Assembly (NCBI GenBank): GCA_030141605.1
Contig: JAQGDQ010000879.1
Span: forward strand, 20,720 to 84,719
Length of the DNA: 64,000 nt
Reading direction: 5' to 3'
Origin: Tubiluchus corallicola
Lineage: Eukaryota; Priapulida; Priapulimorpha; Priapulimorphida; Tubiluchidae
Shown here: positions 5,007-51,875 of the stretch, piece after piece
How positions within the stretch are numbered: the stretch's first letter is position 1
How the letters are laid out: each line of letters begins with the position of its first letter
Translations under genes and position numbers: made by a program
Notes under the pieces: generated by a model
What the model was told of the DNA's origin: nothing
The model's input: the letters and a program-made list of their open reading frames with translations, nothing else
Databases searched by the model: none

Positions 5007-6736
5007 ATGGAGAAAGGTCGAGTAGAGGAGGTTCGTCCCTGTATACAAGAACGACGTAGACAAAGCCTTAGTCTTCCGCTCAGCGACCAGGCGTCGCCAC
5101 CTCCGCGGCAAAGTGATTCACCGTCTCGCGTGGTTGATCACAGTGCAAGGACAACCGAACATTCACCGGTGAGAATAGCCACTGATGGACATCGTCGACC
5201 AAGTCTTACGCTGACCACAGCTACAGGAGCCGTCAAGGAACTGGACATACCCATGAAAACTAGACGGAAATTGCCGGAAATTGGTGATCGTAGGTCGAAT
5301 ATTGCCGTACAACTGGCGCACACTTTGTCAAAAATTGGCAGCGATAATGCACTGCTGGCTCGACACGATGAAATCAGGGAGGAAATGACATCAAACTTTC
5401 CTCGACGTCCTAGTCTGACCATTGATGCTATGTGCGCGGGTGCGGCAAAAAACGGAAGCCCCGAACTTTCACCTGGAATGCAACCAATCAGTGGAAGTGC
5501 ACCAAGCAGCAGACGTACAAGCATGGCACTCCACAGCCCAAATGCTTCTCCAAATCTTTCACCTAAACTGACTCATAGGCTTTCAGATCAGGAAAGCAGA
5601 CGATCGAGTAATGCAAGCTCATCTAGCGTACAGTCATTAAATGACATTTTTGATCATTATTTTCAAGTAGCAGAAGAAATGGCGAGGAAGAGTCCTATAC
5701 TGGATTCTGAAAGTGTAATGGAAAATGGAGCTTCACTGTCTCCACGGATGAAGCATGTTAGGAGTCCCTGCTCCAGTCCTAGAAGTCGTAGTCCAGTAAA
5801 CGTCATTGAAGAGTATCCTGGATCTGCTCATGCCACACATCGATCACCTTCTCCTTGCAGACGCAGAGACAGGTTTGCTGCAAATCGTCCCATTGAAATT
5901 GATCAGAAGGACTCGCTTTTTTGTTCACCTTCTCCTAGTCCGCCACAGAGAAAGTCCGATGCACGCTCACCAAAAATGAAAAAGAAGAAAACGTTTAGCA
6001 AGCGCCATAGCGATGTTGTTGATTATCATCCTTTAAAGAGACAAGCGGAATTTGATCTTGCTAAGCGCAGCTTATCACAGGACAGGCGAAGCAGCGATAG
6101 TGTTGTTGTTAAAACAAACGATGGCGATGATATTAGTAGCGACTTGAAAAACATGTTAAAAATTACATGTGAGGCATTTTCCAATGAAGACATTGCTGAT
6201 GAGAATAACACTGTAAATAATCTATTAAAACCATCAGATGCTGAACTAGAACTGTCAGAAAGTGGGAAACCTTTGTCGCCATTGAGTGCTGCTCGCCGAA
6301 AAAGTGACTCATCGAACGAAAGTGCACCACGCCCAAAATCTCCACAGTTTGAAAAATGCCGCCGAAAAGGAAGGAGGCAAAGTGATAGCCTAGTTCTAGT
6401 TCAGAAACCCTACAAGGTTCGGCCGACGCCCACAAAACACCCACAACAACCGGGAAACAAACCAACCAATCTGAAAATAGAAAATCCCACTTACACCAAG
6501 ATGCTTTCGGAAAGTAGGAATTCTCAGAAGTGGTCGGCAGTACAGCCGCCCGAACCCTCATGGTGGAGTGAACCAGACTGGGGTGATATACCACCAAGAA
6601 TGAGAAACCGAAGCGTGTCTTCACCATCAAAACAGGTGAAAAAGTCAGGAAATATCATTGTTCCTCTAAATAAGAAGTTGCGCAAGCCAAAATCCATCTT
6701 TGAACCTACGGTATCAGCCCAGGAATATTACAGAAC
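5007..6736 (+). CDS. BAIAP3: Large disordered N-terminal coding exon (576 codons), RRxS-rich; alternative first coding exon
   Basis: This is the only long ORF in the window, open for 577 codons. The ATG (A at -3) lies 4 nt after a good acceptor (tgttaatttcag, AG at 5001-5002), so a 5'UTR intron probably precedes it. Read through, the frame stops at TAA 6738-6740, but a donor GTAAGA at 6737 splits the last Thr codon (AC|) and gives phase 2, matching the acceptor at 51788. The protein is basic, Ser/Pro/Arg-rich and mostly low complexity, with no membrane segment and no enzyme motif. Eight RRxS motifs (Ser at about 20, 66, 136, 172, 201, 363, 433, 459) fit protein kinase A or 14-3-3 consensus. 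Many SP sites occur at 228-320. A more ordered helix-like stretch lies near 206-228, and an aromatic/acidic patch (PSWWSEPDWGD) near 518-527. I recognise no homolog of this exon; the link to the C2-MUN gene is by phase and position. Confidence 0.85.
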
Positions 6737-6984
6737 GTAAGAGCTTTCTTAATACTCTGATTAGCAATTCTCAAACTCTTACTGGGTGACAGGTCTGTGT
6801 CGTAAGTACGGTTTGCAACTGCGCCATCTCTCGCAGCATTTTAGACAAATTTGCGTAATTTTTTTTTCAATGCGCAAAATATTTGCGCATGTCCAAATCG
6901 TTTTTTAAGATTTTGTCTAAAAACCCAAATAAATAAGCGAATAAGCCCCTGTCAGCAATTTAATGAAGTCGGCAAGTCAACCTT

Positions 6985-7095
6985 TATAAATAAATAAACA
7001 AATAAATAAATAGATAAATAAATAAATAAATAGATAAATAAATAAATAAATAAATAAATAAATAAATAAATAAATAAATAAATAAAAATAAATTA
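6985..7095 (+). repeat. (AAAT)n microsatellite
   Basis: AAAT repeats with a few GATA and AACA interruptions, about 250 bp after the large exon. Confidence 0.97.
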
Positions 7096-50240: not shown

Positions 50241-50545
50241 AAACACTCAGGCGATATAGATATCTTGGAAAATGTCCAAAGATATTTCACACGTAGAGTT
50301 TTCTGTAGATGTATCTTACCCCGAAAGACTTAAGTTACTAAGCTTAGAGTCTCTTAAAGAAAGACGTCTAATAGACGATTTAGTTATGTGTTATAATATC
50401 ATACACAAAGAAGTGGATTTAGATTCTGGCATGTTTTTTAGCCGGAATCATTCTCCAAAGTTATATGTGAGTCGTGTTTCCAAAACTAGTCTTGCTGATT
50501 TCTTCTCAAATCATGTAGTACCAATACGGAATTCCCTACTATGAC
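50241..50545 (+). pseudogene. Non-LTR retrotransposon C-terminal fragment with frameshift
   Basis: From about 50252 one frame reads DIDILENVQRYFTRRVF; from about 50306 a different frame continues YPERLKLLSLESLKERRLID, then CYNIIHKEVDL and FFSNHVVPIRNSLL, ending in a stop at 50542-50544. Both parts are the classic C-terminal motifs of CR1/L2/Jockey-like LINE proteins in the right order, so one small indel has broken the frame. The upstream catalytic part is absent. It lies in the sense orientation in the intron just before the 51788 exon. Confidence 0.85.
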
Positions 50546-51787
50546 ATATAAACGGACATCTTTTGTTTGGTCACTGCAATGAATGGTAAAATAGTATTTT
50601 TGCTTATTTTGTTGTATTACTTTGCGGGTGTCAAATAAACTAAAGTAAACTTTCTGCGAATTGAATTATTGTCCATCACATGTTGTCAAACTTATCGTTT
50701 TATTTCGAGGAAAACGCGTGTACAAACTTTGCTGAGCAATAGCATTATAGCAGAAGCAGATTGGCTACGTACTTAAGTGTTTCGTTTGCCATTAAAGTTG
50801 TAAAACATCTGTAAGTTCCGTCGGGTTTCTATTAAGTTACACTATTTCATTACACTTCTAGCACGCAAATGCTATTTCTTTGGCCACAAAATAGAAAAAT
50901 TATTGCATTTGCGTGTACATTCTCATGTACTTCTACCTGTTAATCTTATCAACATACAGAATTACATGTAAGCTTAACACTTTAGAAAGGCCAATATCGC
51001 GCTTTTCGTCTCTTACTGAAAAAACGGCATATTTTGTAACTGAATAAAAGCTATTATAGAGCTAGCAAAATGTGTCAAAATAAAAGACAAAAAGGAATTC
51101 CGATAAATTTTGACTAACGCCGAGCATAAAATTTTGTGGAAGCTAGCATTGAATTGAGCAAGTGCAACTAGTACGTACATACTGGAATTTTATAAACGTA
51201 TTTCTTACAAGATAGTTATACAAATTCTGAAGTTAGTCGTTTGACTAAGTTGTTACTGCCCATATGGACTGAGTGCTAACATGAGTAATTAACTTTTTTT
51301 CGAAATACTAAATTTGAGACGCAGGATCAAAGATATTTAAACAAATAAATGCAAAGTTTTGGTCTCAAGACAGTCATTTCGAGTGATATTAATAATTACG
51401 GCGCCTTGAAATTTTGTGACAGTCGCTCATATACTTGTTATTAAATTTTTCACGAGCACTCTAGCTCCTGTAACTCAACTCAGGATTGCCATTACCATAA
51501 AGTCAAGACGTTTAGTTGCTTTCATCGAAAAATTTGTTAAAAATGTTACTGCTGTACATATAAGTATAGAACATTTCTGTGACGTTACACACCAATGATA
51601 CATGAATTGACGAATAGATGTTCTATTCGTTCGACTAGACGAATAAGAATCTTGTAATTTACTTTTACAACCTCACCGTTACCACTACCGTAACGTTGTC
51701 GAAGCTAATACTTGCCGTAGTTTCCTAACTTCAAGAAAAAAATAACGCGCAGTTTAATTATAAAGGTAAGAATTTTTTATTTTCCAG

Positions 51788-51875
51788 AGTCCAAGAAGCT
51801 GATGGCTGCTTCTTTGAGAGCTTTACCGCTTTGTCTTGGAAACAAGAAAATAGACGCTTACGAGCACAGAGCGAG
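51788..51875 (+). CDS. BAIAP3: Shared N-terminal exon, FFESFTALSWKQENRR motif
   Basis: The acceptor tattttccag (AG at 51786-51787) and donor GAG|GTAAGA at 51876 define 88 nt. Entered in phase 2 (first base A completes a split codon), it is fully open for 29 codons: VQEADGCFFESFTALSWKQE, then NRRLRAQSE. It leaves in phase 0, which fits the acceptor at 56616. The dense aromatic/charged composition looks like genuine conserved protein rather than intron. From memory, long invertebrate and vertebrate Munc13-4/BAIAP3 proteins have a short FF-containing conserved block before the ELLY segment; I could not verify this. One of the other frames is also open over this short distance but its phase fits nothing nearby. 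Confidence 0.7.

Follow-up and report, generated by a model that had tools for sequence, protein, structure and literature searches.

The question raised by this locus is whether one gene of the Munc13-4/BAIAP3 group is supplied with several alternative N-termini, each of which is spliced onto the same body. The window, i.e., the whole stretch of 64,000 nucleotides from Tubiluchus corallicola that was analysed, had previously been interpreted from its letters. According to that sequence-only reading, four ATG exons starting at 5007, 14859, 29474 and 33571 share the same phase, feed a single shared exon at 51788 and form a promoter array which swaps the N-terminus of a vesicle-priming protein.

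The Munc13-4/BAIAP3-like identity proposed for the gene was confirmed by homology. The conserved exon C (56900..57067, + strand, TELLYIEVLYT...ASEEK, phase 0 in and out), exon D (61808..61874, + strand, exiting in phase 1), which contains the start of the first C2 domain, and the start of exon E (62467..62608, + strand, FSDPYCMFGIVPG...), in which the C2 domain continues, match human UNC13D (PDB 9la9, E = 1.2e-19). The alignment with chain 9la9_A covers query residues 3-95, spanning the LLY-LYT region and the beginning of the first C2 domain, and takes in approximately the first 16 residues of exon E; it does not reach exon A, exon B or any upstream exon. As in C2-MUN-C2 proteins, the first C2 domain is preceded by the conserved LLY..LYT region. 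No BAIAP3 chain was present among the 51 solved-structure matches of the gene body. In the Pfam search of the joined model, C2 stayed just below its cut-off of 22 bits, at 21.2, since the domain is truncated by the window end. The remainder of the gene lies beyond this end, and its MUN domain and second C2 domain would be encoded past position 64000. Besides this near-cut-off C2, Pfam returned nothing meaningful for the model or for four further ORFs, and no family above the cut-off for 10 single stretches. Judged from this homology, the window holds the 5′ part of one plus-strand animal gene of the Munc13-4/BAIAP3 group. Relatives of exon 5007 or of exons C, D and E were not found in viral and prokaryote contigs, where animal genes are not expected, and the scans of the window with Rfam (at gathering scores) and for tRNAs gave no match.

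A further exon of the body, exon F (56616..56699, + strand, DEYESDKPPPEEGNAGIKLASHKFNKKE, phase 0 in and out), is absent from the earlier note and was obtained from the scan. Its splice pair score of 5.43 is unremarkable alone, with a non-gene pair at 54327 scoring 7.40. The codon score of exon F is reached by 79 of the 15625 open segments, and the exon joins the conserved exon at 56900 in phase 0.

A self-BLAST of the eight regions 5007, 14859, 29474, 33571, 43290, A, B and C detected no second copy of them in the window; exons D, E and F were left out of this comparison, and exon E lies in an inverted repeat. This perfect repeat (62311-62971 / 63340-64000) has arms of 661 nt, 100 percent complementary and 368 nt apart. 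It extends to the end of the window and holds exon E in both orientations. It stems from an inverted duplication of very recent date or, alternatively, from a fold-back artefact of assembly or amplification. Two dispersed repeats are also found. The first, of approximately 290 nt, is located at 15430-15719 and 48899-49188, with its copies 80-89 percent alike in three blocks. The copies of the second, at 26293-26385 and 31905-31996, share GCATCCGGATGCGGATGCG and GCGGAATAGATAAA and agree to 92-94 percent in blocks; a partial copy of 63 percent lies at 29916-29966.

The sites on which the proposal of four starts was built are all present. The ATGs at 5007, 14859, 29474 and 33571 have a purine at -3, which is A in all four cases. 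GTAAG donors follow positions 6736, 15058, 29607 and 33629, and the resulting exon lengths (1730, 200, 134 and 59 bases) are each 2 mod 3. The acceptor TTTTCCAG, followed by A, is found at 51788, and the exon behind it is entered with one base, reading VQEADGCFFESF, which is complementary to phase 2. The joins of all four ATG exons to 51788, either direct or via 43290-43343, are free of stops.

The argument that a shared phase 2 at four sites is unlikely by chance was not borne out. A donor was counted as reachable when an open ATG frame of >40 bases, with a purine at -3, leads to it. On the plus strand of region 1-51740, 11 of the 50 GTAAG sites are reachable, with phases 0/1/2 represented by 4/2/5 donors, and those in phase 2 follow 2698, 6736, 15058, 29607 and 33629. 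In 60 Markov sequences, 7.2 ± 2.2 donors were reachable and 2.5 ± 1.5 of them were in phase 2, versus the 11 and 5 observed. On the minus strand, scanned over the entire window, 14 donors are reachable, with phases 0/1/2 of 8/3/3, a stronger phase sharing than the one that had been pointed out. The probability of at least 5 of 11 donors falling in one named phase is 0.29, and it becomes 0.44 when exon 5007 is removed (4 of 10). The number of phase-2 candidate exons lies within chance.

In all four cases the first codon past the donor junction is TAA, where the respective ORFs stop after 577, 67, 45 and 20 codons. A GTAAG in phase 2 reads NNG-TAA-G, and thus an in-frame TAA always stands directly after such an exon. 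When ORFs that stop at a donor are sought, phase 2 is picked because of this built-in TAA. This is a trap in the reading of such loci, since an ORF stopping at a donor carries no evidence on phase. For these reasons, i.e., the Markov null, the built-in TAA and the probability of 0.29, the phase coincidence was rejected as evidence for four starts. When phase-2 donors were counted by score and compared with 30 Markov sequences, there were 7 versus 4.8 ± 2.0 at a score of 1.9, 3 versus 2.6 ± 1.6 at 3.1, 2 (29607 and 33629) versus 0.5 ± 0.7 at ≥5.0, where the Markov maximum was also 2, and 1 (29607) versus 0.2 ± 0.4 at 6.5. These counts hint at a small phase-2 excess confined to the strongest donors.

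The candidates were scored one by one for their splice sites and coding potential. The splice-site matrices were generic, and ranks refer to the 3726 GT and 3486 AG sites of the window. The codon-use table was trained on exon 5007, and the null consisted of open, overlapping intron segments of equal length from both strands; the codon-score test is therefore not applicable to exon 5007 itself. On short exons the test has little power, as seen with exon A, which is accepted as real but has its score equalled by 1672 of the 14634 segments. In the free coding scan, intron segments reached 16.1 at 42465 (minus strand), 13.0 at 47190 (plus strand) and 12.7 at 7527 (plus strand). The CpG ratio varied from 0.36 to 1.35 per kb without peaking consistently where the candidate exons lie, and as evidence for promoters or methylation it was set aside as uninformative.

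Several other elements occupy the sequence between the candidate exons. Minisatellite arrays are located at 9381-9632 (unit of 22 bases), 16812-17060 (41), 17312-17443 (23), 17653-17766 (23) and 37296-37391 (25), and the two arrays of 23 bases have a near-identical unit. The peptides of 50260-50541 (plus strand), 35682-35918 (minus strand) and 30672-30899 (minus strand) resemble by eye remnants of non-LTR reverse transcriptases, and Pfam gave no match for these three stretches.

The long exon at 5007..6736 (+ strand, 576 codons plus 2 bases, exiting in phase 2) was recognized by its ORF and coding score, and it is plainly coding: in DNA of 35 percent GC, its frame stays open for 577 codons and shows a biased composition. 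Its free-scan coding scores are 146.5 and 72.7. The encoded protein is rich in serine, proline and arginine. It includes eight RRxS motifs against 0.83 expected (approximately 10-fold) and 22 SP against 8.6, and neither number was reached in 2000 shuffles. The RRxS motifs are scattered along the exon. We take RRxS to be a PKA-type motif, and it is possible, from the sequence, that this exon encodes a putative multi-site target region of a kinase or of 14-3-3. A search against solved structures gave no match at E up to 1.

The borders of exon 5007 are less clear-cut than its coding nature. The donor at 6736 is mediocre (rank 115 of 3726), and an alternative phase-0 donor after 6635, with a score of 3.45 versus 1.93 at 6736, would fit 56616/56900. 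An acceptor-like TTTCAG followed by AATCATGG is found at 5003, four bases before the ATG (rank 57 of 3486), and given this site the exon may be a second one behind an untranslated exon. The same acceptor-like TTTCAG, together with the weak donor, the stop located directly at it and the lack of a homology link to the UNC13D-like body, would suit a different gene, whose product of 577 aa has its coding part in one exon and ends at the TAA stop at 6738; the ATAA repeat at 6986-7103 would then supply AATAAA-like signals. However, the frame stops exactly on a GTAAG, which should be rare among chance TAA stops. Moreover, the best other plus-strand segments up to exon A are a GA repeat (47.3) and segments of 13.0 and 12.7, and with segments this weak no obvious partner for another gene is seen. 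We consider it unlikely that exon 5007 belongs to a different gene.

The three remaining upstream candidates fared unequally. The one at 14859..15058 (+ strand, exiting in phase 2, donor rank 60 of 3726) has a codon score reached by 4 of the 22 ATG-started and 166 of the 1280 other open intron segments, and it is probably a chance ORF. Its use as an internal exon after 5007 was also rejected by coordinate arithmetic, as the possible acceptor at 14850 gives phase 0 and mismatches the phase-2 exit. The candidate at 29474..29607 (+ strand, 44 codons plus 2 bases, exiting in phase 2, context CCAAAATGAGC) possesses the top-ranking donor of the window (rank 1 of 3726). Its codon score is reached by none of the 112 ATG-started and by 96 of the 5477 other open segments. 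In the free scan it reaches 10.1; several intron segments of either strand rank higher, with values up to 16.1 when low-complexity repeats are set aside. On its donor and codon use, this segment is likely a real alternative first coding exon. The candidate at 33571..33629 (+ strand, 19 codons plus 2 bases, exiting in phase 2, context AAAGATGG) has a donor of rank 13 of 3726 and a codon score reached by 102 of the 557 ATG-started segments, which is uninformative; it is a possible alternative first coding exon. Across all candidate first exons, the coding signal is strong in 5007 and 53337, mixed in 29474 and indistinguishable from chance in 33571 and 14859.

These results could also be accommodated by a single real phase-2 start, i.e., exon A would receive one long N-terminus from upstream, with the other candidates being chance G-TAA-G ORFs. 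The chance expectation of 2.5 ± 1.5 phase-2 GTAAG candidates versus the 5 found, with TAA built in, points in this direction, as do the codon scores of 14859 and 33571, each reached by approximately 18 percent of the ATG-started null segments, and the free scan, in which 29474 is not outstanding. On the other hand, 29474 combines the top donor of the 3726 with a codon score that no ATG-started null segment attains, and phase 2 is slightly over-represented among the strong donors. A single phase-2 start is regarded as rather doubtful.

Exon A (51788..51875, + strand, VQEADGCFFESF...RAQSE) is entered with one base and exits in phase 0. With an acceptor of rank 28 of 3486 and a donor of rank 2 of 3726, it is bounded by the pair of splice sites that scored highest in the scanned stretches, and its codon score is weak. 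Followed upstream from 51788, the frame reaches a stop without passing an ATG, so that exon A, if coding, needs at least one upstream phase-2 partner. Between the candidate starts and exon A, a 54-nt segment at 43290..43343 (+ strand, phase 2 in and out) carries a branch-point-like CTAAC upstream. Its acceptor ranks 167 of 3486 and its donor 24 of 3726, and its codon score is reached by 1207 of the 31919 segments. The splice score is not above the null, with two such candidates (28002 and 43290) against 0.90 ± 1.11, and the segment is a possible cassette exon.

A candidate start absent from the earlier note is exon B (53337..53630, + strand, MWRLCASGKSFQLRRRKKKNKPLPAP...), an ATG exon of 98 codons. 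In the free scan it is surpassed in coding signal only by exon 5007 and a GA repeat, and its codon score is reached by none of the 169 overlapping open segments and none of the four ATG-started ones. Against solved structures it gave two weak matches, both with E = 0.51, which were taken as chance. Exon B exits in phase 0 and would consequently join exon F (56616) or exon C (56900), bypassing 51788; both joins are open, and its donor is weak (rank 238 of 3726). Since the exit of exon A and the entry of exon B are both in phase 0 and the open frame begins five codons ahead of the ATG, exon B could be conceived as an internal exon of the usual kind that follows exon A. However, the possible acceptors upstream are very poor, ranking 2992 and 3238 of 3486, and we judge an internal exon B to be quite improbable.

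In this window, several ATG exons are phase-compatible with a shared exon, in phase 2 into A and in phase 0 into F and C. These phases, the open frames and the homology of exons C and D and of the beginning of exon E can be read in the DNA itself. The locus is a real gene with probable alternative N-termini. The proposed promoter array survives in part: alternative N-termini are plausible, but four promoters are not established, as 14859 is chance-like and 33571 undecided. Likewise, the phase-2 entry of 51788 stands but its role as the sole hub probably does not; the starts would converge at F/C (56616/56900), and exon A would be the entry for phase-2 starts only.

Our preference, held with little more than even confidence, is for several N-termini spliced onto one body, where 5007 and 29474 would be joined via exon A, and exon B straight into F/C. 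The conserved body would begin at exon F or C. A long, phosphosite-rich N-terminus from exon 5007 and a short one from 29474 would each pass through exon A (51788) to the body, and a third, from exon B (53337), would be joined directly to exon F or C. Each start would possess its own promoter, and the cell type would pick the N-terminal tail, like the two promoters of human UNC13D. We infer here the use of the donors, a promoter per start and any effect on the protein. If this were confirmed, alternative-promoter control would be extended to the Munc13-4/BAIAP3 gene of another animal, and a long N-terminus rich in kinase motifs would be on offer for testing. A more extensive arrangement of five swappable N-termini over approximately 48 kb in two tiers, with four passing via exon A in phase 2 and exon B skipping A in phase 0, is very improbable; if true, the choice of the 577-residue RRxS tail would decide the kinase control of a priming factor.

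Among known systems, BAIAP3 belongs to the same protein group as the gene of the window. Exon A, which contains FF, presumably recalls the BAIAP3 N-terminus. The available part of PMC5496627 holds nothing on BAIAP3 isoforms. As summarized in part of PMC7296141, the unc-13 gene of Caenorhabditis elegans has an alternative promoter within an intron that gives rise to short isoforms, and mammalian UNC13B has two isoforms with distinct N-termini. These are synaptic Munc13s, whereas the gene of the window falls in the Munc13-4/BAIAP3 group; in addition, a C2A domain is present in the long isoform of UNC13B but was not detected by Pfam in the scanned N-terminal exons of the window. An invertebrate homologue of Munc13-4 is Staccato (Unc-13-4) of Drosophila, which the available part of PMC7056964 places on secretory lysosomes. 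The literature titles listed included no case of an invertebrate gene of the Munc13-4/BAIAP3 group with alternative first exons; being titles, they are weak evidence of absence.

A similar arrangement is that of human UNC13D. In the part of PMC7296141 that treats it, an alternative promoter in intron 1 gives a Munc13-4 isoform with a distinct N-terminus, found mainly in lymphocytes and platelets, and the two tails behaved alike in exocytosis assays, with both rescuing T-cell exocytosis. There, two start exons in Kozak context feed a common body and the tails differ (PMC7296141), and the same is proposed for the window. The differences concern the junctions and the tails. Exon 1 of UNC13D ends at c.117, i.e., in phase 0 as deduced from variant numbering in the accessible part of PMC7296141, whereas the four exons initially proposed here exit in phase 2 into the extra exon A, and exon B exits in phase 0. 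The long N-terminus of exon 5007 has no match among solved structures. As alternative promoters have been published for UNC13D and unc-13 (PMC7296141, in part), the idea is not new to the family, to whose known cases the present locus would add another.
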